DNA of 64,000 nucleotides from Antedon bifida. Its lineage: Eukaryota; Echinodermata; Crinoidea; Comatulida; Antedonidae. Each line of letters begins with the position of its first letter. Positions within the stretch are counted from its first letter, which is position 1. The stretch is from positions 19,907,001-19,971,000 of the forward strand of contig OY727095.1 in the NCBI GenBank assembly GCA_963402885.1, written 5' to 3'. Shown one piece after another: positions 11,931-64,000 of this stretch. The position numbers and the translations under genes were made by a program. The notes under the pieces are model-generated. The model was not told the origin of the DNA and made no database searches. It saw nothing but the letters and a program-made list of their open reading frames with translations.

Positions 11931-12041
11931 GTTCACATACTGTATACCCAATATTGCACAAATTGAAATCTGGGATCGTTAATGGTATTTATGACATTTA
12001 TTTCTATGCAAGTAGTTACTGTTGTTTTCTGCACAGCACAG

Positions 12042-12625
12042 TGTTCAGGTTTAATCTATTGTTAACACCAAGTGTTATTACAAGTCAGCACAGTGTTCAG
12101 GTTTAAACTATTGTTAACACCAAGTGTTATTACAAGTCAGCACAGTGTTCAGGTTTAAACTATTGTTAACACCAAGTGTTATTACAAGTCAGCACAGTGT
12201 TCAGGTTTAATCTATTGTTAACACCAAGTGTTATTACAAGTCAGCACAGTGTTCAGGTTTAAACTATTGTTAACACCAAGTGTTATTACAAGTCAGCACA
12301 GTGTTCAGGTTTAAACTATTGTTAACACCAAGTGTTATTACAAGTCAGCACAGTGTTCAGGTTTAAACTATTGTTAACACCAAGTGTTATTACAAGTCAG
12401 CACAGTGTTCAGGTTTAAACTATTGTTAACACCAAGTGTTAGTACAAGTCAGCACAGTGTTCAGGTTTAAACTATTGTTAACACCAAGTGTTATTACAAG
12501 TCAGCACAGTGTTCAGGTTTAAACTATTGTTAACACCAAGTGTTATTACAAGTCAGCACAGTGTTCAGGTTTAAACTATTGTTAACACCAAGTGTTATTA
12601 CAAGTCAGCACAGTGTTCAGGTTAT
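12042..12625 (+). repeat. 52-bp minisatellite, about 11 units (unit 1)
   Basis: Unit TCAGCACAGTGTTCAGGTTT, then AAACTATTGTTAACACC and AAGTGTTATTACAAG. It contains the palindromes GTTAAC and TTTAAA and is nearly homogeneous. The orthologous arrays have about 6 units (28,000-28,295) and 8 units (49,712-50,125), so copy number varies between segmental copies. Confidence 0.9.
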
Positions 12626-13276
12626 TAGTGTTCAGTGTTATTACTCTTACAACATAAAGAAAATCAAAGACTGTACACAAATATATCTTATGTAGAACTT
12701 TTAATATAATACAAATAGTGATAACAAAAATGGTAATCCATAACTTATCAACTTTAAATTTATTTTATACAGAATTATATTTCACTATTTCTACATCATA
12801 TAGAAAAAATATTTCTACATCAAAAAATATATTTAAAAACACAGCAATGAAACTACAGTAAATGCAAAATGCATTGATATCAAACTATATTATATAATGT
12901 CTTCATTGTTTGATTTTTGTCATTTTTAGTTTTACAAATTCTACTACAACTTTGTTCTGTTGTTGTTACTGTGCCAAAGACATCTCATAATGTGTTTATT
13001 TGTTAATATAATTTCTAATTACGTTTTCATTTAATAAAACTGCTGTTGATAACAAATTACGTTTCATCATTAATATGTTAATGTTATGTTTTATAGTTTC
13101 AAGTTGTACCACTTTACTTTTAGTATTTAACCATCCAACCTAATTATAAAGAGTTGTATTAATTACATTTAATATAATATTATCACATAATTACTTTAAA
13201 ACACGCACAACCAATTCTATACAATATATCAAGTAAAAAACATTGCATTATTATAAAAGAATCATTTTCATTAAAT

Positions 13277-13417
13277 ATGGCAGCACAGCTTATAAAGATT
13301 ATAATGAATAAGAAACAAACATTCTTGTTTATCTGCATGCTACAGCTGTTAATAATTATTACTTCCGTTGCTAGTGTGCCGCGTGCGGAAGTACGCGCGC
13401 GCGCTCCGTCGATGAAG
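13277..13417 (+). CDS. Signal-peptide-like first coding exon (unit 1)
   Basis: From ATG 13,277 (or in-frame ATG 13,304) the plus strand reads MAAQLIKIIMNKKQTF, a hydrophobic core LFICMLQLLIIITSVASV, then PRAEVRARAPSMK, and meets a strong donor GTAAGT at 13,418 in phase 0. Positive n-region, long h-region and small residues at SVASV fit a signal peptide or signal anchor. No downstream exon is identified; the next plus-strand sequence is antisense to the NLR gene, so the rest would lie far away or is missing. It sits tail-to-tail with the NLR, about 230 bp beyond its stop codon. Conserved in unit 2, with a frameshift. The family is unknown. Confidence 0.45.
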
Positions 13418-15633: not shown

Positions 15634-15714
15634 CTAATGAGAATAAAAATGTCAAGAAAGATATTTAGTTTAAATTAATTTTAATTAATAAAGGCTTATA
15701 ATTTGCAATTTCCT

Positions 15715-16938: not shown

Positions 16939-18786
16939 CTGAATCTGATTTTTTCAAGCCCAATTTTTCGAGAGTGATAACAAACCAAGATTTTCCTCGT
17001 GAGGCAGAGTCATTATATTCTCTTCGCTTTCCCTTTTCTTCTTGAGTCGTCGACACGTCCTCATCTGTTTAAGGAAAAATAACTAATTCTATCTTTTCTG
17101 AATATATTTTTTTGTGGAAAATATTAATAATATTATTACATTGCCGATTATCAATTGATCCATTATGCATTTTTTTACTAAATTAAACTATTTATGTTTT
17201 TTCAGGGCTAGATAATATCATGATGATTGTTAATGCATAAGAATGTTTTATTGTTACAGAAACTTCGTTTTTCCATTGATTGTAGTATAGGCGGAATTAT
17301 AGAGGACAGCAAACACAATTTTCAATCCTTCAGGGGTTGTCTAAATATGTACAACAGAGGGCAGCAAACAGAAAAATAAACATTTTCAGAGCCGTACACC
17401 GTGCTGAGTGCGTGTATTAAAATGCTAGTAAAACATAAATATTTACTCTGAAAATCTAACTTTTTAGTAGACATATTTTTATTTGTATTCAGTAAACAAA
17501 CTTTGCAATGCGGATTAGAATTAAGCTTATTGAATCTCAAAGAATAATAATATGTGTAATATGAGTCTTACTTATTTACGATGTTAACAACATTTCGTTT
17601 TTAAAACAATGAAGCTTCATAATTATTATATCGTTCTACATGTGGTCAGGATTGGAAATGTACATCAAAAAAAAATTTTGTTTAAATATTATTATTCTGA
17701 AATCAATAGACCTGTTTCTGATTTACCCTCTTTTCGAATTTCTTGTTCTTCATTACTACTGGTTGCCACTTGCCCTGTTTTAATAATAGAATAAGTAAAA
17801 AATTAAAAAACTATTATTATTCTACGTAAAAAACTACCGATTGAGAGCAAAATTATACGGTACATTATTAGTAACTAACCTGTTTCTGATTTAACTTCTT
17901 TTCGCATTCCTTTTTCTTCATTACTACTGGTCGCCACTTGCCCTGGTTTAATAAATGACAAAAATATAAATGTACAATGATATTCTATATCTCTTTTAAA
18001 AATATGTTTCATTATGTATAAGAAAGTAACATAACAAAGATATATAATGTTCATAGCATGCACCTTTATTCGGACTCAGACTTCACATGGATTTAATTTT
18101 GTTATATAATGTTTGTGGTACCATGTTATAACGCTTCGCACTAACTTACCTTCAGTCGGAAGTTTCACTCTTGATTCCAATCCAATCTTTCTTAGATCAT
18201 CAATAAACTCTTCTTTTCTTTGTTTACAAATTATTTTTCTCTGTTCCAAATCCCAAATCATACTCCAAGCATCTTCATAATTCTTTAACGCACTGCTATT
18301 GTACAGTGCATCAATTTTGTCGATATCTTCTTTGGTCAGTGCATTTCCTAAATTGACAATCCAGTGTCGATATGGGGTGAAATGTGTAATCTTGATTTCT
18401 TGAACATCGAGAAAAGATTGTTGGAGAACTTTGATGACACCAAACGTTTGAGTTATTTTGATTGTTTGGTAAAGTAAGGATAGCTCGCTCGAACTCAAAT
18501 ATCCTGATTTAATTAATTGATGCAGTAAGTCTATCGTTTTACGTGCTTTATCTATGTCCGCTACTGCAATTAAATCTCGGTATAAAACTTGCAGCTGTCG
18601 AAAGAGGTGGTGGTCATCATACCAAGTTGAAACGTTCACTAAATCAACATTAAAATCTACAAAACGGTGAAAACATAAAATTATAAAAATTGATAATTCC
18701 AATACACTACCGTTTACTCAATGCAACACAATAAACAATCAATATTTGTTACCTGTTGCCATGGTGTCTATTTTGTGTCTTCATTT
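16939..18786 (-). CDS. NLR paralogue 1, exons 1-5: tandem death-fold module and linkers
   Basis: Exon 1 (18,753-18,786) starts coding at ATG 18,762 and gives MAT; an upstream out-of-frame ATG lies in the same exon. Exon 2 (18,150-18,656) encodes DFNVDLVNVSTWYDDHHLF onward: two helical death-effector-like halves, the first with GYLSSSELSLLYQTIK, the second with LGNALTKEDIDKIDALY and WSMIWDLEQRKIIC. Exons 3 (17,880-17,942) and 4 (17,712-17,774) are 63-nt duplicates encoding GQVATSSNEE repeats. Exon 5 (16,939-17,064) encodes DEDVSTTQEE and SWFVITLEKLGLKKSDS. All junctions are phase 1 and match GT/AG; exon 4's donor (GTCTAT) is the weakest. Death folds recruit signalling partners by homotypic contact. 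DED is the closest reading; CARD or Death is possible. Confidence 0.8.
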
Positions 18787-27771: not shown

Positions 27772-27999
27772 CTAACCTGTCTTCGACAATCTATTGCAAG
27801 TTTGATCGCTGCATATTCATTCAATTCTCCATCAAGATATCCACATCAAATCCATGGCTCCTGGCTTTAAATTTACTACAGTACTGGGTTCACATACTGT
27901 ATACCCAATATTGCACAAATTGAAATCTGGGATTGTTAATGGTATTTATGACATTTATTTCTATGCAAGTAGTTACTGTTGTTTTCTGCACAGCACAGT

Positions 28000-28295
28000 G
28001 TTCAGGTTTAAACTATTGTTAACACCAAGTGTTATTACAAGTCAGCACAGTGTTCAGGTTTAAACTATTGTTAACACCAAGTGTTATTACAAGTCAGCAC
28101 AGTGTTCAGGTTTAAGCTATTGTTAACACCAAGTGTTTTTACAAGTCAGCACAGTGTTCAGGTTTAAACTATTGTTAACACCAAGTGTTATTACAAGTCA
28201 GCACAGTGTTCAGGTTTTAACTATTGTTAACACCAAGTGTTATTACAAGTCAGCACAGTGTTTAGGTTTAAACTATTTTTAACACCAAGTGTTAT
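28000..28295 (+). repeat. 52-bp minisatellite, about 6 units (unit 2)
   Basis: Same unit as 12,042-12,625, with more variants between units (TTTAAGCTA, ACTATTTTTAAC). Confidence 0.9.
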
Positions 28296-28897
28296 TACTC
28301 TTACAACATAAAGAAAATCAAAGACTGTACACAAATATATCTGAACATTAAGTAGAACTTTTAATTATTCCAATCTATATATTTTCACCCTTAAATTTAT
28401 TTTATACATAATTATATTTCACTGTTTCTACATCATAACATAAAAAATAAGTCTACATCAAAAAATATATTTAAAAACATGAACATGAAACTAATCATTG
28501 ATATCAAACTATATTATATAATGTCTTCATTGTTTGATTTTTGTCATTTTTAGTTTTACAAATTCTACTACAACTTTGTTCTGTTGTTGTTACTGTGCCA
28601 AAGACATCTCATTATGTGTTTATTTGTTAATTTAATTTCTAATTACGTTTTCATTTAATGAAACTGCTTTTGATAACAAATTACGTTTCATCATTATGTT
28701 AATGTTATGTTTTGTAGTTTCAAGTTGTACCACTTTACTTTTAGTATTTAACCAGCCAACCTAATTATAAAGAGTTGTATTAATTACATTTAATATAATA
28801 TTATCACATAATTACTTTAAAACACGCACAACCAATTCTATACAATATATCAAGTAAAAAACATTGCATTATTATAAAATAATCATTTTCATTAAAT

Positions 28898-29040
28898 ATG
28901 GCAGCACAGCTTATAAAGATTATAATGAATAAGAAACAAACATTCTTGTTTATCTGCATGCTACAGCTGTTAATAATTATTACTTCCGTTGCTAGTGTGC
29001 CGCGTGCGGAAGTACGCGCGCGCGCGCTCCGTCGATGAAG
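28898..29040 (+). pseudogene. Signal-peptide-like exon, unit 2 (frameshifted)
   Basis: Identical to the unit 1 exon through PRAEVRA, including the GTAAGT donor at 29,041, but the alternating CG tract is two bases longer. The frame then runs into a TGA just before the donor. Confidence 0.5.
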
Positions 29041-29262: not shown

Positions 29263-31283
29263 CTAACGATGAAAAAATGTAATATTTCTTATTGAACACT
29301 TTTCAGACACGTGACGAATGTCGTCAGCTGATAGATTGCAATCATACATCCAAAGCTCCCTCAGCTTAGGACACATAATGAGAAATGAAGAAAATGTATT
29401 AACATCAATGTTGTGAAGTTTACTATCATAGATACCGAGTTCACATAATGCTAATTGAACTTGTTTGAGAGAACATTCTGATACAAAGTCATGAAATACA
29501 TCACGTGATAGATTGTGAATGAAAACACCGTAGTCATATTTACCTTCAATGCCTAAAATGTGTGCAATAACTCTTCCCTTTCGCTCCAATGCCATCTTAC
29601 TACAAAAGTCACGGACACTACGACGACCATATTGCATACAATACAATTGCATAATTAGACGTATGAAATGCCCGTCACATTGTACACCTGGACTAATATG
29701 ATCAATAAACATTCTTATGGAGGTAGATATATCATCCAAATGATTATTTATTTCGAAATCTTTGCTTGTCATGTGATTAATTAATTCATTAACCACATCA
29801 TCTTCGTGTTCTTTTTTAACAAAGTTTAAATTTCTCGGCAGATAGCGATATGTTGACAAACTATTTGTAACCCAGTGCTTGAGGAAACCGCCAGCTTTAT
29901 CACCAAGGAAACCAATTGCAAACTCTCTCGCTCTGTATAAATGCTCACTCTCTCGTATCACCTCCCACTCATCATCATCCAATGGTGTAAGTAATGTTCG
30001 TACATCTGGGCACTCATTCTCCATACCTTCACTTTCACATAATTTGCACAAGTAAAATCCCACCAATGACTCTACTATCAATTTGTGAGGAGGCATATAA
30101 ATGTTATCAAATTTAGATTTTGAAATTGGTGCTTCTTCATAAACGAACCCGAGTTTTAAGGCCATATCGGCCATATCTCTGTTCGAATGTTCAGTCAAAT
30201 ACGTTTTGTTTATTGAAAGTTGATTTACTTTTAAGCTTTTATACATACATTTTCCTAATAAAACCATAGCATTTACGTACTTCACTGGTGTTTTTTCAAA
30301 ATCAGAAATCTTTTGTTCATTATCGTGTTTGATAAACTGATTTAAAATACTACGAAATAGTTCTTTAAAGAGGTCAGTTTTATTTTCGGGGAGACTTTGA
30401 TTATCTTCCCACAATATACAGAGTGAAAGAAGTAGCATCGGGTTTTTGCACATTGCATACGCTTCAGGATGTTTTTGATCCTCTGACGAGAACGATAACG
30501 ACGACACCGAATGTGACGACTCCTCCTCCGACGACGACGACTCATATATGTCTAACTCTTGTCTAAGGTATTTTCCCAATTCTGGTTTTTCTAAATACTC
30601 AAAATGTTTGTCAATGTACTCTCCTATGCTCTCGTCATTAAATCCCTTAACTCTTACATGTACGTTACTCTCTTTTACAAATTCATGAATGTTTTCTGAT
30701 CGTGAAGTAAGCATCACAGTACTTTTCTCTAAATATTTATTTCTGAAAAGACTAATTACGCTTGGATTATTAAATCTTAATTCATCTAACCCATCTAGTA
30801 GCAGTACAACTTTATCGTCATGTTTCATTATGAATTTCTTAATTAACCGTGGATCATTTGGGAGATCGGTATCTAAATTAAAATTTGTCATATTAATTTG
30901 CTTTACAATTAAATCAGAGATGTCGTCATCATTTTCTAAATCTCTTAAACTTAAAAAAAATACAATTTTACCTTGAAATACTTTAATTGATTGACCAGTA
31001 GCCCAATTGTACGATAAATGTCTTAATATAGTAGTTTTACCTATCCCACCCTCCCCATCTATAAGAGCTCTACATCCAGGTGTGGAGCTGATAACATCTA
31101 CCACTTCTGTTAATGTTGTTGGTTTGCAGCCTTTATTGTTTTCACGTTCTTTCAGTAGTTCCATATCAGTAAACATCTGTGAAATGTCAACTGTGTATCT
31201 AGCATGCATTGTTGCTGGTGTAAATATACTGGCCTGGCTACACAATTTCTTTTGTCTTTGAAGCAGATATTCTTTAATCTTTT
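29263..31283 (-). CDS. NLR paralogue 2, NACHT exon (exon 6, C-terminal)
   Basis: Counterpart of the NACHT exon of paralogue 1 and well above 90% identical over the NACHT core, including GEGGIGKTT, KVVLLLDGLDEL and MPPHKLIVESLVGFYL. It carries an extra acidic/serine segment after YESSSSEE (the added residues include SSHSVSSLSFSSED). C-terminal differences cluster in the single leucine-rich repeat: MCPKLRELWMYDCNLS here against MCPKLRRLIMMHCNLS in paralogue 1, and GIYDSKLHNID against YISDSNLHNID. The acceptor at 31,284 is in phase 1 and the stop is at 29,263. Likely role: an ATP-dependent cytosolic sensor or signalling hub. The frame is intact over 2 kb, which argues it is functional. Confidence 0.93.
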
Positions 31284-32292
31284 CTAATGAGAAGAAAAAT
31301 GTCAAGAAAGATATTTAGTTTAAATTAATTTTCATATTATGATAAAGCTTTTAAAACTTAACTGAAAATCATAAATAATACTAAACCATAAAATACAATT
31401 AGCTGGAGAATTTAGAGAACCGTTGCGTTAAGAACGCCAACAAATATCGTGCATAGCCGTAATACTGTGATTTTGGCCCTGTATCGGCAGAACCTCTCGT
31501 AAGCGGTCACTTTTCCCGGTCCCGAGGGTGGCCGCTTACGGGAGCTTTAACTGTAAAACAATTGTGTAGTGGTTAATAGGGAGCTGACGTACACCAGAGT
31601 AAATTATATAGAGGGCGACAAACACAATATATTATCAATCAGAAAGAAAACTTGTTTGGAACGACTGGGTCGCCAGAGCTGCTAATGTAACCGTAATATG
31701 TAGCAAATGCCGCTTATTTAGTAAACCGCAAGCTATAATGTGGTCGCTTACAAGATGTCCGCTTTTAGAAAGGCGCTCAAGAGGTGGATAGACGGACAAG
31801 TGTAGCACACATTTTATAGACAAAAGTTTTGTAAAATAAAGTAAACGTATATCTGTTTCTCGTTACTACATTCTTTACTCCATGCACGTTACCTGTCGGG
31901 CGCGTGCTACATTAGCTGGTGGTGAATTGTAGTATAACAAATTTTAATATTTTTTAGGTGTATCAGCATTCAGTACATACAGTATACGACAGCAATAACA
32001 ATATTTAAGTTATTATAGGTTAAAAGGCGATTTGTTGTGTTGAACATTTATGATTTATTACTGAAACTAAACTCACAATCTACGTAATAACCACATTCAT
32101 TTATGATCATCCACAATTTTATGCCGAATGACATACGCTTGTGCATTATAGGTCCTAATTAATACAACAGTGCCTATAACGTGTATACATGAAAATAAAA
32201 TGGATTATAGAGGGCGGCAAACAAAATATATTATTAATCAGAACGAAACTGTGTTTGAGTTAATGTCAATTGAAATTTTGAATTTGATTACA

Positions 32293-32784: not shown

Positions 32785-35595
32785 TTGAATCTGATTTTTT
32801 CAAACCCAATCTTTCGAGAGTGATAACAAACCAAGATTTTCTGTTTCCTCGTGAGGCAGAGTCATTATATTCTCTTCGCTTTCCTTGTTCTTCTTGAGTC
32901 GTCGGCACTTCCTCATCTGTTTAAGGAAAAATAAATAATTCTATCATTTCTGAATTTATTTTATTTTGGAAAATATATATTACATTACTGATTAACAATT
33001 TATCTTTTGATCCATTAGGCAGTATTTTTACCAAATTAATATGAATGTAATCATGTTAACTATTTATTTGAAGTTTTTGCAGGGCTAGATAATATCATCC
33101 GTGAATAAGTGCATTTTGTAGGATTGGATTTCCAGTAAGTAGCAGTAGACCGGATCAAGCCATCAGCCAAGATGGCGAAAGCTAAAGAATGTGATTAATT
33201 TCATTACTGGATTTGTCAAACAAAATGATTTATTTAGATAATATCATGTTTTTAATGCATTAAGAATCTTTGATTGTTTTCACTTTCAAATTTTCCCATT
33301 TATATATAATTGTTGTTAATTTTTTTCGCCAGTATCAGAAACTATAATCACATACTTATTAATGAAGTTAGTGCAATTGCAACTTTCGTTAGTTTTTTCA
33401 TTAAATTGTTGTATAGGCGGAATTATAGAGGGCGACAAACATAATTTTTAATCCATCAGGAGGTGTCGAAATATGCTCAACAGAGGGCAGCAAACAGAAA
33501 AATAAAGTTTTCATTCACCAAAATGATTCTGGATGTCAAACAATAATGTTATCGCAGTTCAACAAATGATTCTCCATGGAGAAGGAACCAACAAGATGGC
33601 GGCTGCAATCGACCAATCAGATATGCCCTACGCAGTACGCACTACTACGCCTGTGTTGTTCAGAGCCTATAATCTGCGTGAGAACGATACGCAACGCAGT
33701 GTGTTAAGCGTATAAAAGCGAAGGCATTCTATATTATGATCCTCGTATTAAATAGATTACCAAGAAATTATTCATCCTACTGTGATTAACAATTATTATA
33801 TTTAATTGTATAAAAACTTCACTGTGCTTTGACAAGAATATGTGTTGTAATTTATGTGGTCTTAATGTATTATATTAGATTATTATTTTTTATATTAAAT
33901 AATGTTTTTGAACACATTGATGGCCGCAATCTTGTTGGTTCCCCCTCCTGTTTTTGGAATCACTTTTCAGTCTGGAGTACGCCATCTAGCCTTCGGCTTA
34001 CATCTCACTGGGCCGAACACAATGCGGAGTTTTAGTGAAACGTAATAAAAACAAATTTTAAAAGTAATAAAATCTTCCTAAAACCGTATAAAGTATAAAA
34101 ATGTCATTATTATTCCTTGCCAGTAATTTGGTAAAATTCCTAATTCCGTTCCAACAATTACAGACAATTCATGTCCCGCCGACTGCATTGAGAGTGTGCA
34201 ATAATATGGAATCGAATCTGGGCAGATTTCTGTTCCGATTATCTTGTAAACTGTAACGCTATAGTTTGTAACTTGTTGTGAAGGTCATATTGAAAAAGTT
34301 AGTTTCGTATTTTTAGTGTGGGAATGTATTCTTTTGATGTTTTTTGCTTATTCTTTGTTTTAAATATTATTATTTTGAAAGCAACTAACCTGTTTCTGAT
34401 TTACCCTCTTTTCTCATTGCTTGTTTTTCATTACTACTGGTCGCCACTGTTTTAATAATACAATAATAATAACAACAAATGAAATACTTATTCTACCTAA
34501 AAAAACACCGATTGAGAGCAAAATTATACGGTACATTATTAGTAACTAACCTGTTTCTGATTTAACATCTTTTGGCATTCCTTGTTCTTCATTACTACTG
34601 GTTGCCACTTGCCCTGTTTAATAAATGACAGGAAAAAACCTGAATTTAGGCTACAATGATATTCTATACTGGACTTCTTTAAAAATATCAATTACTGCAT
34701 TAATATTTTTCATTGTATATTCAAAATAATAATTAACATAACAAAACAACAGCAATGTTCAGTCGGCGGACATGGATTTAATGTTGTCAGACTGTTTTTT
34801 TTATTTCTTTTTACCAAACTAATGTTTTTTACGCTTTTCGCACTAACATACCTTCAGTCAAAGGTGTTACTTTTGATTCCAGTCCAACTTGTTTTAGATT
34901 GTGAATGAATTCTTCAATTTTTTCTTCACAGATTATTTTTCTTTGTTCTAAATCCAGAATCATACTCCAAGCATCTTTATAATTCTTTAACGCACTACCA
35001 TTGTACAATGCATCGATTCTGTCCACATCAGCCTGTCTAAGTCCATTTCCGAAAGCTACAATTTGTAGTCGATACCGAGTGAACTTTGTAATTTCTTGAA
35101 CTTCAAGAAAAGAATGTTTGAGCCGATCTATGACACCAAACTGTTTAGTTACTTTTATTGTATCGTATATTAATATACGATTGTCTGAACTTAAACGTCC
35201 ATTTGCCCTTAATTCCTGTAGTAAGTGTATTGTGTTGGTGGCGCTGTCTATTTTCGCTACTGCAATCAAATCTTGGTACAAAACTTTTAGCTGTCTCAAG
35301 AGGTTGTGCTCATCATACCAAGTTGAAACATTTACTAAATCAAGATCAAAATCTATAAAATGGTGAAAACAGAACAATAAAAAAAAAAAGTATTACTATT
35401 CAATGCAACACTAGGATTACTGTATATACAGCATTGTCATTTTTCAGTAATTTTGCCTATATAATCCGGACCCATCTTTTTTTTTTATGTCGGTACTTAT
35501 TATACTAATATGTTTATAATATTGTATTAAGTCTTTATGAGTGAATACATTATCAGTGTACCTGTTGCCATTTTTTCAAATTTCTCTCTTCAATT
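32785..35595 (-). CDS. NLR paralogue 2, exons 1-5: tandem death-fold module and linkers
   Basis: Exon 1 (35,562-35,595) starts at ATG 35,571 and gives MAT. Exon 2 (34,852-35,352) encodes DFDLDLVNVSTWYDEHNLL onward, with the two death-effector-like halves (NGRLSSDNRILIYDTIKV; FGNGLRQADVDRIDALY; LDLEQRKIIC). Exons 3 (34,551-34,613, 21 codons) and 4 (34,390-34,446, 19 codons, two codons shorter at its start) are the paired linker exons. Exon 5 (32,785-32,916) is two codons longer than in paralogue 1, and its last base is A instead of G, still before GTGAGT. All junctions are phase 1. Exon 2 is only about two thirds identical in protein to paralogue 1, far less than exons 5 and 6. Confidence 0.8.
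33510..34330 (+). other. Insert in NLR2 intron 4 with a CCAAT/TATA promoter-like arrangement
   Basis: About 800 bp with no counterpart in unit 1. GACCAATCAG (CCAAT at 33,613) and TATAAAAG (33,711-33,718) are spaced like a polymerase II promoter on the plus strand, antisense to the NLR. Downstream are short open frames without recognisable protein. The element class is not determined; no clear terminal repeats were found. Confidence 0.4.
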
Positions 35596-49711: not shown

Positions 49712-50125
49712 ACAGCACAGTGTTCAGGTTTAAACTATTTTTAACACCAAGTGTTATTACAAGTCAGCACAGTGTTCAGGTTTAAACTATTTTTAACATC
49801 AAGTGTTATTACAAGTCAGCACAGTGTTCAGGTTTAAACTATTGTTAACACCAAGTGTTATTACAAGTCAGCATAGTGTTCAGGTTTAAACTATTGTTAA
49901 CACCAAGTGTTATTACAAGTCAGCACAGTGTTCAGGTTTAAACTATTGTTAACATCAAGTGTTATTACAAGTCAGCACAGTGTTCAGGTTTAAACTATTG
50001 TTAACACCAAGTGTTATTACAAGTCTGCACAGTGTTCAGGTTTAAACTATTGTTAACACCAAGTGTTATTACAAGTCAGCACAGTGTTCAGGTTTAAACT
50101 ATTGTTAACACCAAGTGTTATTACT
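49712..50125 (+). repeat. 52-bp minisatellite, about 8 units (unit 3)
   Basis: Same unit as in units 1 and 2. Confidence 0.9.
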
Positions 50126-50346
50126 CTTACAACATAAAGAAAATCAAAGACTGTACACAAATATATCTTATGTAGAACTTTTAATATAATACATATAGTG
50201 ATAACAAAAATGGTAATCCATAACTTATCAACTTTAAATTTATTTTATACAGAATTATATTTCACTATTTCTACATCATATAGAAAAAATATTTCTACAT
50301 CAAAAAATATATTTAAAAACACAGCAATGAAACTAAATGCAAAATT

Positions 50347-53300
50347 TATGGCAAGCCTCAGCTGTCTGAAGTATTCAAAATATTATATTATTATATCATT
50401 TTTTTATTATATTATATATTGTATTGTAATGAATTATACGTTTTGCATTATATTACTTGGTTTTAGCATTATATTATATCTATTTCTAATATATTATGTG
50501 AAAAATGTAACAAATTATTGACTTTTTGTATTATATTATTCGGTTTTGGCATTATATTATGAACATTTACTATTATATTATTAATAAAATACATTATATT
50601 ATAATATAATTGTATTATATTAAACCCATTTACCTTACTTTATAACATACAACATTATTATATTATACGGATTCGTTAGTTATATTATTATTTTGTATGA
50701 TGTTTATTATACGTCACGGCTCATTTCAGTTCTTCTAACTCTTTCTCTCCCTCCCCCTGTTCACTAGCAATCAGCGGCAGAATCTGAATTGTGTGACTGT
50801 TGAAGAATAACTATACTACGTACTAGGCCTAGCCTAGGCCTACTAGGGGATCTAGCCTAGACGTAGCTAGTTAGACAAGTGACCAAGGACCACCGGACAG
50901 CTACAACTAATACTACAATACAATAATACTACTAATGCAATAACTACTACTGCTAATACTTAGGCCTAGCTAGTAGAGTACTAGGTAGGTTAGCTACTAC
51001 TAGGCTCTAGGGGGGTTAGGGCGTATGTATGATGTTAACTACTAGGCCTAGGCCTACTAGTACTAGCCTAGGCTAGGCCTAGACTTAAGTTGTAGTAGGC
51101 TAGGGCCGGGCCTGCTGCCTTAGGCTAGGCTAGGCTACTACTACTACTACTACTACTAGGCAGCCAGCCCATGATGGTTACGAGTAAGCCAAAATTTTGG
51201 ATATAAGTAAACCAAAATTTGGGTACGAGCGAGTTGGCATGGGTACGGGTTGACCTGTATCCTTCTTTCTAGCTAATCGTACTATGCCTAGGCCTCAAGT
51301 AAGTCTACGCTACCCAGTCCGGCTACAATATGGTCTATTTTGTTTTATAGCTTTATTGATAGCTGGGTTCAAATCTGGGTTGGGACGGCTTTTTCTCATT
51401 CTAAAACAGAGTTCCTTATCATAATAAAATAATATATGAATTTATTTGTAATAGTACCTAGGCCCTAATTGCCATTGCATTTATTATTATTAATTATATA
51501 TTATACAGTTACCCCTTAATTATACTATAGTATAATTTCCTTGTTATATTTTACAATATTTTCTTTATAATTCTACAATTTTGTCTTTCACAGCACAAAT
51601 TTATCATACTGTATTTGTCCAAGCTACTCCAGCTACATGGTATTGCCTTGAGGCTAAACTACACGGTATACTGGCACTACCATCATTCCTGGCTCGTCAA
51701 CCTGGACCACATAAGCACAGTTTCAGTTTCAGTTTATTTACCATTTCAATTTCTGAACATAAGAGATGAACAACTTATATGGATGGATAACCATAAGAGG
51801 CTCGTTTACCGGTCACCCGTTAGTGCAGTGACATTACGGACAACATAAAGACAGGGCAAAGGTGCAATACATAACAAGACATGTGAACACTTGTGTTTGC
51901 AACCCCTTGGATAAAATAATATATTTATATAAAGGAGAAAGATAGATATTATAATATTTCTTTTTTATCATACAATACATAGTACCTATTGGTATTATAT
52001 CTAAAAATACAAAGGCGGCTAACACAGATAGTTCCATATATACAGTACTCTCTTATAAATAGATGTATCTCTCCAATCTACCTAATCTAATAATAGTACT
52101 ATTAGCATACTACTATACACTTTGTAGACAAGAAGTAAGTTGTATACACCTAGAGGACTTATGGTAGTACAGTCGAACGCCCTCTCACTGGCCCGGTCAA
52201 CATAATCTATACCTAGATTATTACAGTAATTAAAGTACATTATTACAGAGATTTTTTTTTTTTTTTTGCAGAAATCAAAGTTATGTGTATAGAAAGCAGT
52301 ACTCGTATTAAAAACTAAGCAGGTTGTACTCTTGAACGCAAACTGGCAGGATATTTTGAATATTTTTTATTGTTGAAATGAATGGAATCCTAACTTCTTT
52401 GCAACAACTGGAGACGAAGACATATTATGACCCTTTTATTTAAATTTATTTGAATAGACCTTCATGTAAATTCATTAAAGGCTATATGTTTGTTTTATAT
52501 TTTAATATGTGATAGTAGAAAATCATTGTGTATAATGAGGACTAAGAATCTGATATTCACTTGCATTCTCATCTTTTAAAAATTTTTATTTATAATGCTG
52601 GTAATGAGTTTAAAATTTAATTATATTGACTAGTTTTGATGATCATTATTTCTTTTGTGTAATATAGTTCATATATTATGTATTGAATAAATTGGTAAGG
52701 CCCTATACTGTTATTATTTAAGGAAAGTTTATATACACTTATTTTATGCCTACTTAGTATTAATTGTTTATATAAATATTTTGTCTAATTGCCTTGATTT
52801 TTTGTATAGGCCAATGGCATCAATGTTTTTCTCAACGCAAATTAGCCTAATAATGCCACATTTAAACACATGATTCATTGATTTCTGATATTCTGTACTT
52901 GAGTATGCATTACTAAAATAACCAAGTAGTTAATATATTTCATTTGTAATGTATGTATAAACATTAAGTTTTTTTTCACATTTTTAAATTTAAAAATTAT
53001 TACAATACCTACCTTTCTGATATTGTTACTATTTTATAATATATTTTGAGGCAGCAATAAAAAAAAATTAAAACAATTAATTTGACTAATACTGTACTAT
53101 TTTAGTTCAGGATATGAAATGTGTGTGGGCATCTGGTGTGTTGGAGGTTGGTGATGTGAGGTGTATATTTGTCACTTTAAGACCTAAATTAGATGTTTTC
53201 TGAAGAAAAGAAGTAAGAGGATACGCTTTCAAACAATTCCAAGAAGATTCACACAAAAATAATTACTTTCCAATAAAATAGTATAACAGTGTATATTACA

Positions 53301-56300
53301 GTACATTGAATAAACTCGAGCGGAAAAATAACGCACATAAAAAAACACTCATATTCTTGTCGAAAAGTGCCCTCTATAGTTTTCTATTAATTTATTAATA
53401 ATTATTATTAATTAATGAGTAATATGAACATATTTTTAACATTCAATGCTGGAAACTGGTTCTACTCCTAACAAAGTTTCATACCTCCAAATTTCATCAA
53501 CGTATTCAAAGCACTTCAATATTAAATATCACATTTAACATAAAAAAATTCGGGTTTTGGATAGAATTTTGCTTAAAAACATATACAAAAAACATCGATA
53601 AAAAATACTTTTCGTATTCAAAAACAGATGATACTTGGTATAAATGTTCACTATAGGTTGCTCTATTCACAGAAACAAAATTGCATTCATGAACGTTTTT
53701 TGTTGGTTGTTTTTTCAAAATAGTTATTAGCTTGAAAAAAATGAGTTGGAATTGTATAGTCTTTCATAAGTGTACATTTTGTAAAAACGTAAATTTAAAA
53801 AATCAGTGATATGGCTTGATAGTTATTTTTTTTTTTGCAATATGGATGGAGCAACCTATATTGAACATTTATACCAAGTATCAAATGTTTTTGAATACGA
53901 AAAGTATTTTTTATCGATGTTTTTTGTATATGTTTTTAAGCAAAATTCTATCAAAACCTGGATTTGTAATGTTAAATGATATTTATTTAAGTGCTTTGAA
54001 TACGTTGATGAAATTTGGAGGTATGAAACTTTGTTAGGAGTAGAACCAGTTTCCAGCATTGAATGTTAAAAATATGTTCATATTACTCATTAATTAATAA
54101 TAATTATTAATAAATTAATAGAAAACTAGAGAGGGCACCTTTCGACAAGAAAATGAATGTTTTTTTATGTGCGTTATTTTTCCGCTCGAGTTTATTCAAT
54201 GTACTGTAATATACACTGTTATACTATTTTATTGGAAAGTAATTATTTTTGTGTGAATCTTCTTGGAGTTGTTTGAAAGCGTATCCTTTTACTTCTTTTC
54301 TTCAGAAAACATCTAATTTAGGTCTTAAAGTGACAAATATACACCTCACACCAGATTCTGCCCACACACACTTCATCTCCTGAACTAACATAGTACAGTA
54401 TAAGTCAAAATAATTGTTTGTTAAAATTTTTTTTTATTGAAAACAATCTGCCTCAAAAAATATCATACAATAGTAACAATATCAGAAAGGTAGGTATTGT
54501 AATAATGTTTAAATTTAAAAATGTGAAAAAAAAATGAATGTTTATACATACATTACAAATGAAATATATTAACTACTAGGTTATTTTAGTAATGCATACA
54601 CAAGTACAGAATATCAGAAATCAATGAATCATGTGTCTAAATGTGGCATTATTAGGCTAATTTGCTTTGAGAAAAACATTGATGCCATTGGCCTATACAA
54701 AAAATCAAGGCAATTAGACAAAATATTTATATAAACAATTATACGAATAATGGTAGGCATAAAATAAGTGTATATAAACTTTCCTTAAATAATAACAGTA
54801 CAGGGCCTTACCAATTTATTTAATACATAATATATGAACTATATTACACAAAAGAAATGTAAATGAATTTATAAGGACATAATTATTATCAAAACTAGTC
54901 AATATAATTAAATTTTAAACTCATTACCAGCATTATAAATAAAATTTTAAAAAGATGAGAATGCAAGTGAATATCAGATTCTTAGTCCTCATTATACACA
55001 ATAATTTTCTACTATTAGTATCACATATTAAAATATAAAACAATCATGTAGCCTTTAATGAATTTACATGGAGGTCTATTCAAATAAATTTAAATAAAAG
55101 GGTCATAATATGTCTTCGTCTCCAGTTCGTAGAAAATGAAGTTAGGATTCCATTCATTTCAACAATAAAAAATATTCAAAATATCCTGCCAGTTTGCGTT
55201 CAAGAGTACAACCTGCTTAGTTTTTAATACGAGTACTGCTTTCTATACACATAACTTTGATTAGGTAGTTGGGAGTAGATTGGAGAGATACATCTATTTA
55301 TAAGAGAGTACTGTATATATGGAACTATCTGTGTTAGTTGCCTTTGTATTTTTAGTTATACTGTAATACCAATAGGTACTGTGTATTGGGATGCAATTCA
55401 ACAGTTATGAATAAAAATAGTCCTATGTACTCTGTATGTTGGAGGAAATAAGCATAAGAGCAAGTCTTGACCACAGGGTGTAAGTCAGTCACTATTTTGA
55501 ATCAGTAGTATGACTTCTTAGGATTTAATTAATTTTTAAATTATCATTGTATGATCGAAAAGAAATATTATAATATCTAACTTTCTCCTTTATATAAATA
55601 TATTATTTTATCCAAGGGGTTGCAAACACAAGTGTTCACATGTATTGCACCTTTGTCCTGTCTTTATGTTGTCCGTAATGTTACTGCACTAACGGGTGAC
55701 CGGTAAACGAGCTTCGCTCTTACGGTTATCCATCCATATAAGTTGTTCATCTCTTATGTTCAGAAATTGAAATGGTAAATAAACTGAAACTGAAACTGTG
55801 CTTATGTGGTCCAGGTTGACGAGCCAGGAATAATGGTAGTGCCAGTATACCGTGTAGTTTAGCCTCAAGGCAATACCATGTAGCTGGAGTAGCTTGGACA
55901 AATACAGTAGAAATTTACGAGACTTGGTGTGTGATGATTCAGTATGATAAATTTGTGCTGTGAAAGACAAAATTGTAGAATTATGAAGAAAATATTGTAA
56001 AATATAACAAGGAAATTATACTATAGTATAATTAAGGGGTAACCGTATAATAAATAATAATAAATGCAATGGAAATTACTTATATTATGTATACATTACA
56101 ATATTACAAATAAATTCATATATTATTTTATTATGATAAGGAAATCTGTTTTTGAATGAGAAAAAGCCATCCCAACCCAGATTTGAACCCAGCTATCAAT
56201 AAAGCTATAAAACAAAATAAACCATATTGTAGCCGGACTGGGTAGCGTAGACTTACTTGAGGCCTAGGCCTAGTACAATTAGCTAGAAGGATACAGGTCA

Positions 56301-57169
56301 ACCCGTACCCATGCCAACTCGCTCGTACCCAAATTTTGGTTTACTTATCCAAAATTTTGGCTTACTCGTACCCATCATGGGCTGACTGCCTAGTAGTAGT
56401 AGTAGCCTAGCCTAAGGCAGCAGGCCCGGCCCTAGCCTACTACAACTTAAGTCTAGGCCTAGCCTAGTACTAGTAGGCCTAGGCCTAGTAGTTAACATCA
56501 TACATACGCCCTAGAGCCTAGTAGTAGCTACCTAGTACTCTACTAGCTAGGCCTAGGTAGTAGCAGTATTAGTTATTGTAGTAGTATTATTGTATTGTAG
56601 TATTAGTTGTAGCTGTCCGGTGGTCCTTGGTCACTTGTCTAACTAGCTACGTCTAGGCTAGCTCCCCTAGTAGGCCTAGGCCTAGTACGTAGTAAAGATA
56701 ATTAGTTATTCTTCAACAGTCACACAATTCAGATTCTGCCGCTGATTGTTAGTGAGCAGGGGGAGGGAGAGAAAGAGTTAGAAGAACTGAAATAAGTCGT
56801 GACGTATAATAAACATCATACAAAATAATAATATAACTAACGAATCCGTATAATATAATAATGTTGTATGTTATAAAGTAAGGTAAATGCGTTTAATATA
56901 ATACAATTATATTATAATATAATGTATTTTATTAATAATATAATAGTAAATGTTCATAATATAATGCCAAAACCGAATAATATAATACAAAAAGTCAATA
57001 ATTTGTTACATTTTTCACATAATATATTAGAAATAGATATAATATAATGCTAAAACCAAGTAATATAATGCAAAACGTATAATTCATTACAATACAATAT
57101 ATAATATAATAAAAAAATGATATAATAATATAATATTTTGAGTACTTCAGACAGCTGAGGCTTGCCATA
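50347..57169. mobile_element. Giant palindromic element, copy 1 (~6.8 kb, arms ~3.3 kb)
   Basis: It starts TATGGCAAGCCTCAGCTG and ends with its exact complement; flanking AAAATT on both sides (50,341-50,346 and 57,170-57,175) looks like a 6-bp target duplication. Left arm 50,347 to about 53,670 and right arm about 53,846-57,169 are inverted copies with scattered indels; a loop of about 175 bp (53,671-53,845) is unique. From the tip inward each arm has a TATATTAT-rich zone of about 300 bp, a TAGGCCTA-rich zone, a segment with a retroposon-like tail, and long AT-rich sequence. No transposase, integrase, polymerase or capsid-like frame is seen. The unit 1 counterpart of the flank continues without it, so it is an insertion. 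Confidence 0.8.
51590..51790 (-). repeat. Retroposon-like tail inside each arm of the palindromic element
   Basis: On the minus strand: AGAAATTGAAATGGTAAATA followed by (AACTGA)n. The same segment is in the other arms near 55,690-55,970, 58,430-58,700 and 62,760-63,000. The open frames of 60-105 codons found there on either strand are probably by-products. Confidence 0.45.
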
Positions 57170-57191
57170 AAAATTCATTGATATCAACTAC

Positions 57192-60100
57192 TATGGCAAG
57201 CCTCAGCTGTCTGAAGTATGGCAAGCCTCAGCTGTCTGAAGTATTCAAAATATTATATTATTATATCATTTTTTTATTATATTATATATTGTATTGTAAT
57301 GAATTATACGTTTTGCATTATATTACTTGGTTTTAGCATTATATTATATCTATTTCTAATATATTATGTGAAAAATGTAACAAATTATTGACTTTTTGTA
57401 TTATATTATTCGGTTTTGGCATTATATTATGAACATTTACTATTATATTATTAATAAAATACATTATATTATAATATAATTGTATTATATTAAACGCATT
57501 TACCTTACTTTATAACATACAACATTATTATATTATACGGATTCGTTAGTTATATTATTATTTTGTATGATGTTTATTATACGTCACGACTTATTTCAGT
57601 TCTTCTAACTCTTTCTCTCCCTCCCCCTGCTCACTAACAATCAGCGGCAGAATCTGAATTGTGTGACTGTTGAAGAATAACTAATTATCTTTACTACGTA
57701 CTAGGCCTAGGCCTACTAGGGGATCTAGCCTAGACGTAGCTAGTTAGACAAGTGACCAAGGACCACCGGACAGCTACAACTAATACTACAATACAATAAT
57801 ACTACTACAATAACTAATACTGCTACTACCTAGGCCTAGCTAGTAGAGTACTAGGTAGCTACTACTAGGCTCTAGGGCGTATGTATGATGTTAACTACTA
57901 GGCCTAGGCCTACTAGTACTAGGCTAGGCCTAGACTTAAGTTGTAGTAGGCTAGGGCCGGGCCTGCTGCCTTAGGCTAGGCTACTACTACTACTACTAGG
58001 CAGTCAGCCCATGATGGGTACGAGTAAGCCAAAATTTTGGATAAGTAAACCAAAATTTGGGTACGAGCGAGTTGGCATGGGTACGGGTTGGCCTGTATCC
58101 TTCTAGCTAATTGTACTAGGCCTAGGCCTCAAGTAAGTCTACGCTACCCAGTCCGGCTACAATATGGTTTATTTTGTTTTATAGCTTTATTGATAGCTGG
58201 GTTCAAATCTGGGTTGGGATGGCTTTTTCTCATTCAAAAACAGATTTCCTTATCATAATAAAATAATATATGAATTTATTTGTAATATTGTAATGTATAC
58301 ATAATATAAGTAATTGCCATTGCATTTATTATTATTTATTATATATTATACGGTTACCCCTTAATTATACTATAGTATAATTTCCTTGTTATATTTTACA
58401 ATATTTTCTTCATAATTCTACAATTTTGTCTTTCACAGCACAAATTTATCATACTGAATCATCACACACCAAGTCTCATAAATTTCTACTGTATTTGTCC
58501 AAGCTACTCCAGCTACATGGTATTGCCTTGAGGCTAAACTACACGGTATACTGGCACTACCATTATTCCTGGCTCGTCAACCTGGACCACATAAGCACAG
58601 TTTCAGTTTCAGTTTATTTACCATTTCAATTTCTGAACATAAGAGATGAACAACTTATATGGATGGATAACCGTAAGAGCGAAGCTCGTTTACCGGTCAC
58701 CCGTTAGTGCAGTAACATTACGGACAACATAAAGACAGGACAAAGGTGCAATACATGTGAACACTTGTGTTTGCAACCCCTTGGATAAAATAATATATTT
58801 ATATAAAGGAGAAAGTTAGATATTATAATATTTCTTTTCGATCATACAATGATAATTTTAAAATTAATTAAATCCTAAGAAGTCATACTACTGATTCAAA
58901 ATAGTGACTGACTTACACCCTGTGGTCAAGACTTGCTCTTATGCTTATTTCCTCCAACATACAGAGTACATAGGACTATTTTTATTCATAACTGTTGAAT
59001 TGCATCCCAATACACAGTACCTATTGGTATTACAGTATAAATAAAAATACAAAGGCAACTAACACAGATAGTTCCATATATACAGTACTCTCTTATAAAT
59101 AGATGTATCTCTCCAATCTACTCCCAACTACCTAATCTAATAATAGTACTATTAGCATACTACAATACACTTTGTAGACAAGAAGTAAGTTGTATACACC
59201 TAGAGGACTTATGGTAGTACAGTCGAACGCCCTCTCACTGGCCCGGTCAACATAATCTATACCTAGATTATTGCAGTAATTAAAGTACATTATTACAGAG
59301 ATTTTTTTGTTGTTGCAGAAATCAAAGTTATGTGTATAGAAAGCAGTACTCGTATTAAAAACTAAGCAGGTTGTACTCTTGAACGCAAACTGGCAGGATA
59401 TTTTGAATATTTTTTATTGTTGAAATGAATGGAATCCTAACTTCATTTTCTACGAACTGGAGACGAAGACATATTATGACCCTTTTATTTAAATTTATTT
59501 GAATAGACCTCCATGTAAATTCATTAAAGGCTACATGATTGTTTTATATTTTAATATGTGATACTAATAGTAGAAAATTATTGTGTATAATGAGGACTAA
59601 GAATCTGATATTCACTTGCATTCTCATCTTTTTAAAATTTTATTTATAATGCTGGTAATGAGTTTAAAATTTAATTATATTGACTAGTTTTGATAATAAT
59701 TATGTCCTTATAAATTCATTTACATTTCTTTTGTGTAATATAGTTCATATATTATGTATTAAATAAATTGGTAAGGCCCTGTACTGTTATTATTTAAGGA
59801 AAGTTTATATACACTTATTTTATGCCTACCAATATTAGTATAATTGTTTATATAAATATTTTGTCTAATTGCCTTGATTTTTTGTATAGGCCAATGGCAT
59901 CAATGTTTTTCTCAAAGCAAATTAGCCTAATAATGCCACATTTAGACACATGATTCATTGATTTCTGATATTCTGTACTTGTGTATGCATTACTAAAATA
60001 ACCTAGTAGTTAATATATTTCATTTGTAATGTATGTATAAACATTCATTTTTTTTTCACATTTTTAAATTTAAACATTATTACAATACCTACCTTTCTGA

Positions 60101-63100
60101 TATTGTTACTATTGTATGATATTTTTTGAGGCAGATTGTTTTAAATTAAAAAAAATTTTAACAAACAATTATTTTGACTTATACTGTACTATGTTAGTTC
60201 AGGAGATGAAGTGTGTGTGGGCAGAATCTGGTGTGAGGTGTATATTTGTCACTTTAAGACCTAAATTAGATGTTTTCTGAAGAAAAGAAGTAAAAGGATA
60301 CGCTTTCAAACAACTCCAAGAAGATTCACACAAAAATAATTACTTTCCAATAAAATAGTATAACAGTGTATATTACAGTACATTGAATAAACTCGAGCGG
60401 AAAAATAACGCACATAAAAAAACATTCATTTTCTTGTCGAAAGGTGCCCTCTCTAGTTTTCTATTAATTTATTAATAATTATTATTAATTAATGAGTAAT
60501 ATGAACATATTTTTAACATTCAATGCTGGAAACTGGTTCTACTCCTAACAAAGTTTCATACCTCCAAATTTCATCAACGTATTCAAAGCACTTAAATAAA
60601 TATCATTTAACATTACAAATCCAGGTTTTGATAGAATTTTGCTTAAAAACATATACAAAAAACATCGATAAAAAATACTTTTCGTATTCAAAAACATTTG
60701 ATACTACTTTGTATAAATGTTCAATATAGGTTGCTCCATCCATATTGCAAAAAAAAAATAACTATCAAGCCATATCACTGATTTTTTAAATTTACGTTTT
60801 TACAAAATGTACACTTATGAAAGACTATACAATTCCAACTCATTTTTTTCAAGCTAATAACTATTTTGAAAAAACAACCAACAAAAAACGTTCATGAATG
60901 CAATTTTGTTTCTGTGAATAGAGCAACCTATAGTGAACATTTATACCAAGTATCATCTGTTTTTGAATACGAAAAGTATTTTTTATCGATGTTTTTTGTA
61001 TATGTTTTTAAGCAAAATTCTATCCAAAACCCGAATTTTTTATGTTAAATGTGATATTTAATATTGAAGTGCTTTGAATACGTTGATGAAATTTGGAGGT
61101 ATGAAACTTTGTTAGGAGTAGAACCAGTTTCCAGCATTGAATGTTAAAAATATGTTCATATTACTCATTAATTAATAATAATTATTAATAAATTAATAGA
61201 AAACTATAGAGGGCACTTTTCGACAAGAATATGAGTGTTTTTTTATGTGCGTTATTTTTCCGCTCGAGTTTATTCAATGTACTGTAATATACACTGTTAT
61301 ACTATTTTATTGGAAAGTAATTATTTTTGTGTGAATCTTCTTGGAATTGTTTGAAAGCGTATCCTCTTACTTCTTTCCTTCAGAAAACATCTAATTTAGG
61401 TCTTAAAGTGACAAATATACACCTCACACCACCAACCTCCAACACACCAGATGCCCACACACATTTCATATCCTGAACTAACATAGTACAGTATAAGTCA
61501 AATTAATTGTTTTAATTTTTTTTTATTGCTGCCTCAAAATATATTATACAATAGTAACAATATCAGAAAGGTAGGTATTGTAATAATTTTTAAATTTAAA
61601 AATGTGAAAAAAAACTTATTGTTTATACATACATTACAAATGAAATATATTAACTACTTGGTTATTTTAGTAATGCCTACTCAAGTACAGAATATCAGAA
61701 ATCAATGAATCATGTGTTTAAATGTGGCATTATTAGGCTAATTTGCGTTGAGAAAAACATTGATGCCATTGGCCTATACAAAAAATCAAGGCAATTAGAC
61801 AAAATATTTATATAAACAATTAATACTAAGTAGGAATAAAATAAGTGTATATAAACTTTCCTTAAATAATAACAGTATAGGGCCTTACCAATTTATTCAA
61901 TACATAATATATGAACTATATTACACAAAAGAAATAATGATTATCAAAACTAGTCAATATAATTAAATTTTAAACTCATTACCAGCATTATAAATAAAAT
62001 TTTTAAAAGATGAGAATGCAAGTGAATATCAGATTCTTAGTCCTCATTATACACAATGATTTTCTACTATCACATATTAAAATATAAAACAAACATATAG
62101 CCTTTAATGAATTTACATGAAGGTCTATTCAAATAAATTTAAATAAAAGGGTCATAATATGTCTTCGTCTCCAGTTGTTGCGAAGAAGTTAGGATTCCAT
62201 TCATTTCAACAATAAAAAATATTCAAAATATCCTGCCAGTTTGCGTTCAAGAGTACAACCTGCTTAGTTTTTAATACGAGTACTGCTTTCTATACACATA
62301 ACTTTGATTTCTGAAAAAAAAAAAAAAAAATCTCTGTAATAATGTACTTTAATTACTGTAATAATCTAGGTATAGATTATGTTGACCGGGCCAGTGAGAG
62401 GGCGTTCGACTGTACTACCATAAGTCCTCTAGGTGTATACAACTTACTTCTTGTCTACAAAGTGTATAGTAGTATGCTAATAGTACTATTATTAGATTAG
62501 GTAGATTGGAGAGATACATCTATTTATAAGAGAGTACTGTATATATGGAACTATCTGTGTTAGCCGCCTTTGTATTTTTAGATATAATACCAATAGGTAC
62601 TATGTATTGTATGATAAAAAAGAAATATTATAATATCTATCTTTCTCCTTTATATAAATATATTATTTTATCCAAGGGGTTGCAAACACAAGTGTTCACA
62701 TGTCTTGTTATGTATTGCACCTTTGTCCTGTCTTTATGTTGTCCGTAATGTCACTGCACTAACGGGTGACCGGTAAACGAGCTTCGCTCTTATGGTTATC
62801 CATCCATATAAGTTGTTCATCTCTTATGTTCAGAAATTGAAATGGTAAATAAACTGAAACTGAAACTGTGCTTATGTGGTCCAGGTTGACGAGCCAGGAA
62901 TGATGGTAGTGCCAGTATACCGTGTAGTTTAGCCTCAAGGCAATACCATGTAGCTGGAGTAGCTTGGACAAATACAGTATGATAAATTTGTGCTGTGAAA
63001 GACAAAATTGTAGAATTATAAAGAAAATATTGTAAAATATAACAAGGAAATTATACTATAGTATAATTAAGGGGTAACCGTATAATATATAATTAATAAT

Positions 63101-64000
63101 AATAAATGCAATGGCAATTAGGGCCTAGGTACTATTACAAATAAATTCATATATTATTTTATTATGATAAGGAACTCTGTTTTAGAATGAGAAAAAAGCC
63201 GTCCCAACCCAGATTTGAACCCAGCTATCAATAAAGCTATAAAACAAAATAGACCATATTGTAGCCGGACTGGGTAGCGTAGACTTACTTGAGGCCTAGG
63301 CCTAGTACGATTAGCTAGAAAGAAGGATACAGGTCAACCCGTACCCATGCCAACTCGCTCGTACCCAAATTTTGGTTTACTTATATCCAAAATTTTGGCT
63401 TACTCGTAACCATCATGGGCTGGCTGCCTAGTAGTAGTAGTAGTAGTAGCCTATAGCCTAGCCTAAGGCAGCAGGCCCGGCCCTAGCCTACTACAACTTA
63501 AGTCTAGGCCTAGCCTAGGCTAGTACTAGTAGGCCTAGGCCTAGTAGTTAACATCATACATACGCCCTAACCCCCCTAGAGCCTAGTAGTAGCTAACCTA
63601 CCTAGTACTCTACTAGCTAGGCCTAAGTATTAGCAGTAGTAGTTATTGCATTAGTAGTATTATTGTATTGTAGTATTAGTTGTAGCTGTCCGGTGGTCCT
63701 TAGTCACTTGTCTAACTAGCTACGTCTAGGCTAGATCCCCTAGTAGGCCTAGGCTAGGCCTAGTACGTAGTATAGTTATTCTTCAACAGTCACACAATTC
63801 AGATTCTGCCGCTGATTGCTAGTGAACAGGGGGAGGGAGAGAAAGAGTTAGAAGAACTGAAATGAGCCGTGACGTATAATAAACATCATACAAAATAATA
63901 ATATAACTAACGAATCCGTATAATATAATAATGTTGTATGTTATAAAGTAAGGTAAATGGGTTTAATATAATACAATTATATTATAATATAATGTATTTT
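57192..64000. mobile_element. Giant palindromic element, copy 2, opposite orientation (runs off the window)
   Basis: The 25-bp terminus beginning TATGGCAAGCCTCAGCTG is present twice in a row (57,192 and 57,217). The first arm (57,217 to about 60,735) matches the right arm of copy 1; the second arm (about 60,925 onward) matches its left arm. The loop (60,736-60,924) is the reverse complement of the copy 1 loop. So copy 2 is inverted relative to copy 1. It is separated from copy 1 by 22 bp of host sequence (57,170-57,191). No coding capacity is recognised. Confidence 0.8.

Follow-up and report, generated by a model that had tools for sequence, protein, structure and literature searches.

A family of 7-kb palindromic foldback elements in the crinoid Antedon bifida, probably non-autonomous DNA transposons of the IS3EU type

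Introduction

At the right end of a 64,000-nucleotide stretch of Antedon bifida DNA (termed the window; C8:19907001-19971000 in a genome of 315.6 Mb and 27 contigs) large inverted repeats follow each other. A preliminary description, made from the letters of the window, took them for a single hairpin built of two hairpins and suggested a foldback family of unknown kind. This raises two questions: did the structure originate as one unit, and to which class of mobile elements do its parts belong? In our view it is the work of a non-autonomous cut-and-paste DNA transposon of the IS3EU type, the body of which is a 7-kb imperfect palindrome; it went through a burst, followed by local insertions and a deletion (probability about 0.82).

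Architecture of the locus

The window ends in foldback elements of alternating orientation. They were genuine, yet three rather than the two described; the third, wholly outside the window and reaching to 71194, was seen after rightward extension of the sequence. The features are:

50341..50346, left target-site duplication (TSD) of element 1, AAAATT
50347..57169, minus strand, element 1, 6823 bp, opposite in orientation to element 2, with TATGGCAAGCCTCAGCTGTCTGAAG at each end
53664..53848, loop of element 1, approximate (interval left between the inverted BLAST matches)
57170..57175, right TSD of element 1, AAAATT
57176..57191, host DNA, 16 bp, resembling with small differences the empty-site paralog near 12870-12887
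57192..57216, plus strand, extra 25-bp terminus copy preceding element 2
57217..64000, plus strand, in-window part of element 2 (true end 64220)
57308..57503, plus strand, direct repeats, subterminal and AT-rich, with spacings of 21, 63 and 83 and a motif around GCATTATATTAT
58457..58491, plus strand, 35-bp segment specific for a single arm type, that of arms 2 and 3, approximate
60737..60914, loop of element 2, approximate (gap between inverted BLAST segments)
64221-71194 in extended coordinates, element 3, inverted relative to element 2

Self-BLAST of the window confirmed that each element is an imperfect palindrome. Inside the elements the main arm segments matched in inverted orientation at about 92-93%, and in ten shuffled versions of 50347-64000 the best inverted matches were merely 14-32 bp. 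Thus, long inverted repeats constitute most of the element, as is expected of a foldback. Direct repeats within the terminal inverted repeats (TIRs), another foldback property, were present as modest, AT-rich subterminal motifs. Elements 1 and 2 are inverted relative to each other (50586-55262 versus 64000-59320, 99.2%), and 55259-59140 matches itself in inverted orientation at 98.4%. The segment previously given as 36 bp covers 35 columns; arms 2 and 3 have it, arms 1 and 4 lack it. The earlier size of 6.8 kb fits element 1 (6823 bp), the others being about 7.0 kb; the exact bounds of the first two are 50347-57169 and 57217-64220. Of the 22 bp between element 1 and the extra terminus, six are the right TSD and 16 are host DNA. 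TATGGCAAGCCTCAGCTGTCTGAAG was found at all ends of elements 1-3 with the exception of the right end of element 2, where the last 19 bp are missing in the normal orientation and element 3 begins.

Copy number, size and age of the family

The family termini, TATGGCAAGCCTCAGCTGTC, occur 109 + 92 = 201 times as exact matches in the whole genome, which substantiates the proposed dispersed family. With up to two mismatches 222 termini were found; a reversed-pattern control yielded 0. Bracket matching of 192 listed termini gave 82 pairs and 28 unpaired termini. Of these pairs 53 had a size of 6.6-7.3 kb, three of 6.4-6.6 kb and eight were below 6.4 kb; 18 exceeded 7.5 kb, sizes which in part represent nesting, as bracket matching may mis-pair nested ends. 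Only two of the 82 were near 1 kb. The typical copy of 7.0 kb has arms of about 3.4-3.5 kb each and a loop of about 180 bp. Element 1 was aligned with nine other full-length copies of 6974-7036 bp and is about 180 bp shorter. Both arms were present in 10/10 of these copies, so the reservation that there might be one element only, or that other copies might lack the palindrome, was not borne out in the assembly.

Arm divergence was determined in the ten full-length copies from the outermost 1750 bp of every arm. Copies of the same arm differed by 0.46% (left) and 0.25% (right), compared with 6.03% between left and right arms within elements and 6.04% between elements. Therefore, divergence of the arms preceded the burst, and no homogenisation has followed. 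In the ten copies the arm types are separated by 85 fixed substitutions plus fixed indels, the 35-bp segment among them, and no sign of mutual conversion was detected. The mean full-length divergence was 0.43%; the family is young and the divergence of its arms predates the burst. The burst would then have spread one ancestral palindrome, the arms of which differed already. The outer 175 columns were identical from arm to arm in 2/3 copies tested; in element 1 this applied to 27 columns. One 5.2-kb copy, C13:11377637-11382797, has both halves of a single arm type and no TSD; it is likely a recombination product.

Target-site duplications and the empty site

TSDs were scored in 26 insertions or composites, a non-random selection from those fetched. 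The ends were TATGG..CCATA in 26/26 (asserted by the script). A perfect TSD of 6 bp was present in 14/26 and one of 7 bp in 1/26 (C9:7682855-7696947); TSDs of exactly 4, 5 or 8 bp were absent (0/26). When flanks were swapped as a control, 5/650 matched. Among the twelve without a perfect 6-bp TSD nine were nested or rearranged, including the C9 composite, and three were non-nested short variants of 1088, 1015 and 3372 bp, in which 4, 5 and 2 of 6 bases matched. Element 2, element 3 and C10:13436194-13443295, the flanks of which disagree, were not scored individually.

The host DNA of the window is a tandem repeat unit and thus supplies paralogs of the insertion site:

12800..12887, plus strand, empty paralog of the element 1 insertion site, within a duplicated host segment
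12888..13337, plus strand, paralogous counterpart of the 450-bp host segment absent between element 1 and the composite of elements 2 and 3

Paralog 1 reads AATGCAAAATGCATTGATATC; its counterpart in the window reads AATGCAAAATT, element 1, AAAATTCATTGATATC. Paralog 2 likewise lacks element 1; a small deletion affects its site. To the left of the composite the host DNA agrees with paralog 1 as far as 12887; to the right of element 3 the agreement begins at 13338 in paralog 1 and at 28959 in paralog 2. Hence, about 450 bp of the paralog are missing here. The composite is flanked by AACTAC and TGCTAC, which have CTAC in common; its original TSD may have been TGCTAC, with a subsequent deletion at the microhomology.

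Because its parts are separable, i.e. an element with its own TSD and empty site, a composite and a 450-bp host loss, the hairpin of hairpins was not supported as a single unit. The 'palindrome of palindromes' looks like the outcome of separate events: insertion of element 1, of a two-element composite, and a host deletion of 450 bp. In the order which we consider plausible, one copy (element 1) would have inserted with the TSD AAAATT, the nested composite (elements 2 and 3) would have inserted close to it, and the 450 bp in between would have been lost afterwards.

Search for a transposase and assignment to IS3EU

In a Pfam scan none of 10 ORFs of the region reached the curated cut-off. Inside the 82 paired copies we located 0/46 hits of rva_4, in Pfam an Integrase core domain, and 0/150 listed rve hits (150 scored of 638 candidates). 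The rva_4 hit closest to a foldback copy was 44.6 kb off. Accordingly, with respect to rva_4 and the listed rve hits, a transposase-bearing copy with exactly the foldback termini was not found among the 82 pairs. The earlier remark that the element lacks its own transposase applied to every copy read. Larger copies were considered as the autonomous partner and rejected: a 12.26-kb copy at C1:14.02M was read whole, 5 kb each were read of a 12.2-kb copy at C1:12.78M and a 10.56-kb copy at C8:3.16M, and two copies of 8.5 and 9.3 kb at C8:16.4M were read as well. They owed their additional length to other DNA, and on visual inspection no transposase was recognised among the ORFs listed.

IS3EU elements have TA..TA ends and a TSD of usually 6 bp (PMC10045372); in fungi TAYGG..CCRTA ends, a 6-bp TSD and a TIR of >30 bp were described (PMC12730594). 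The foldback has TATGG..CCATA ends, a 6-bp TSD and a TIR of >30 bp, and integrase-bearing relatives exist in the same genome. It differs in that a transposase is absent and the inverted repeat extends over nearly the whole 7 kb. Repbase contained 45 IS3EU families, 17 of which were autonomous (PMC10045372). Autonomous members have their own integrase-like transposase; the foldback does not, and can be filed solely as non-autonomous.

The relatives are seven paired elements ending in TATGGAAAGCCAAACCCGCCAAAA (TATGGAAAGCC..) which enclose rva_4 integrase hits. Three were checked and all had a 6-bp TSD (GAAGCC, CGCGCG, ACCGTT). Ten of their 11 outermost bases are common to the foldback; a further terminus set, TATGGCAAGCCAAGTCCGCC, agrees in 11/11 (16 exact, 59 with <=2 mismatches). 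Past these 11 bases the foldback termini are unlike those of the integrase elements. A direct search around four rva_4 loci for TA..TA ends with a 6-bp TSD found none; the ends of one rva_4 element family were obtained by comparing copies. With blastn, an arm matched nothing in three of these loci and short AT-rich stretches in the fourth (L033), none convincing. Sister termini sharing the first 14 bases and differing at the 15th gave 2 hits only, so that this search revealed no close sister family.

The kind of family, formerly left open, is indicated by the termini, the TSD length and the related integrase-bearing elements, all of which point to IS3EU. We read rva_4 as the putative IS3EU transposase, which these ends and TSDs support; no paper was found that equates the two. 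Because no integrase hit is inside any of the 82 pairs, we infer movement in trans, probably by an IS3EU-type transposase encoded elsewhere in the genome. The foldback ends are those on which such an enzyme would act; the transposase of the related elements would move the foldback and duplicate 6 bp of target.

Several observations on the integrase loci were made in passing. At C1:3955500-3963000 an ORF encodes a 410-aa rva_4 integrase with four equal-scoring copies; a neighbouring ORF matches HECT weakly and falls short of the Pfam cut-off. At C14:7.7-8.5M and C11:11.1-11.6M near-identical rve hits recur each 25-30 kb, most with one internal TAA; here an integrase-bearing unit forms a large tandem array. 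IS3EU-like terminus pairs 130-170 bp apart (C8:7599880-7600047, C10:31223249-31223412, C12:21769387-21769518) are probable small MITEs of the integrase-bearing families.

Clustering, nesting and composites

The copies are strongly clustered: between neighbouring foldback copies 21 end-to-start gaps were <1 kb. When 96 elements were placed at random in 2000 runs, such gaps numbered 0.24 on average and at most 3 (overlaps are included in the simulated count, and 20 Mb was used as the rounded length of one contig). As a control, 72 IS3EU-like termini had 20 end-to-start gaps, the smallest of 96 kb; this set is older and more mixed, i.e. not age-matched to the foldback. At ten loci a terminus was located in or directly at the end of another copy: C8:19.96M, C9:7.69M, C11:5.50M, C11:5.56M, C10:13.44M, C10:14.76M, C10:22.81M, C7:34.90M, C14:11.50M and C1:22.99M. 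The inner copies C9:7689866, C11:5504418 and C10:14760167 have perfect 6-bp TSDs of their own (CTTCAG, TCAGAC and ATAAGG, respectively). The copy C1:22980379-22987426 carries an extra end of 25 bp, C14:11500328-11507425 one of 90 bp, and in both a perfect 6-bp TSD is outside the extra end. This suggests that composite ends move as units. At C7:34.90M the 90-bp breakpoint is as at C14, yet a TSD is absent. Elements 2 and 3 together match the composite C9:7682855-7696947 except for an inverted 19-bp terminal piece between CTTCAG and CTGAAG; our guess is that hairpin or cruciform processing inverted it.

Possibly the family targets itself: termini might be preferred landing sites at which copies pile up, and composite ends as well as two-element composites might move on as new units. 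We put this forward tentatively. If true, palindromic arrays would grow by self-targeting instead of recombination. The self-clustering is a testable case of a transposon targeting its own ends.

Alternative explanations and known systems

Foldback reads are a known class of artefact (PMC12870357), long palindromes are difficult to assemble, the palindrome structure was read from the assembled sequence and the 19-bp flip at 64221 is a detail which an assembler could get wrong. It is nevertheless highly improbable that the palindromes were produced by foldback reads or by the collapse of inverted repeats: a foldback read would not yield arms 6% apart with fixed differences in 10/10 copies, and the copies reside at many loci with differing flanks, have exact 6-bp TSDs in 14/26 cases and are matched by an empty paralog. 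The clusters, in turn, could be segmental duplications or inversions of existing copies rather than insertions in or beside copies. In support of this, the host genes form a tandemly duplicated cluster, several composites are without a TSD, and the rearranged copy at C13:11377637, in which one arm type occurs twice without a TSD, demonstrates that rearrangement does occur. This would leave unexplained the three different TSDs of three neighbours at C8:16.41-16.44 Mb and the perfect TSDs of the inner copies on C9, C11 and C10, and we regard it as unlikely, if less so than an artefact.

An origin from another superfamily, Mutator/FB-like, P/Galileo-like or Polinton, with IS3EU-like ends by chance, appears quite unlikely as well. 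In its favour, we infer the acting transposase from related elements, and according to the Tetris paper most foldbacks are seemingly Mutator (PMC4079207). Tm1 (Mutator) and Tetris (suggested Mutator) share with the present family long inverted repeats, subterminal direct repeats and mostly transposase-less copies, yet their TSDs have 8-10 bp (8-10 in Tetris, 9 in Tm1) compared with 6 here; Mutator/FB, for which a TSD of about 9 bp is required, was rejected on this ground. Tm1 elements are 0.17-2.5 kb long (PMC3169594), versus 7 kb here. The ends, moreover, fit the published IS3EU consensus TAYGG..CCRTA and the integrase-bearing elements of this genome. Galileo of Drosophila (P superfamily, hence another one than IS3EU) similarly has long TIRs, and its copies with the longest TIRs lack a transposase; these TIRs are about 1.26 kb in D. 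mojavensis (PMC3573991), and the foldback arms of about 3.4-3.5 kb are almost three times this cited maximum.

Polintons/Mavericks have ends which start with AG and carry a DNA polymerase gene. They were rejected since the foldback ends start with TATGG and no polymerase gene was recognised in the Pfam scan of 10 ORFs; a 6-bp TSD is found in Polintons also (PMC10045372).

MITEs are under about 0.6-1 kb in length. They too are non-autonomous, defined by their ends and moved in trans, as the foldback presumably is. With 53/82 pairs at 6.6-7.3 kb, about ten times the usual MITE length, this class was rejected, in keeping with the preliminary description. Clustered insertion has been reported for the Stowaway-like family DcSto of carrot (PMC3695323).

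Among the literature matches listed, no IS3EU foldback in print was found, and a database-only or unpublished one may exist; one listed paper, PMC8268682, has both words, 'foldback' being part of a cited title there. Foldbacks presumably have independent origins in different transposon lineages, Mutator above all, to which IS3EU would now be added. That a 7-kb palindrome reached about 100 places in a short time, its arms staying 6% apart, bears on the tolerance of animal genomes to long palindromes.

Host region and RNA matches

The host segment in window positions 1-50300 is tandemly duplicated with a spacing of about 15.6-16.4 kb. It contains NACHT genes at 13646-15661 and 29263-31311, both on the minus strand, as well as two DED-like ORFs, at 18076-18714 and 34829-35389, which fall short of the Pfam cut-off; it is an NLR-like immune gene cluster. 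Adjacent inverted copies within such an immune-receptor-like cluster are a likely source of local rearrangement, of which one loss of 450 bp was seen. A miRNA was rejected: three weak Rfam matches to miRNA families at 57133-57228, on both strands, scored 33.7 versus a gathering threshold of 83; they sit on the junction of inverted termini and were taken as hairpin artefacts. A 52-bp minisatellite occupies the equivalent place in each duplicated host unit, at 12034-12623, 27991-28298 and 49713-50124, with 11.3, 5.9 and 7.9 copies, respectively.
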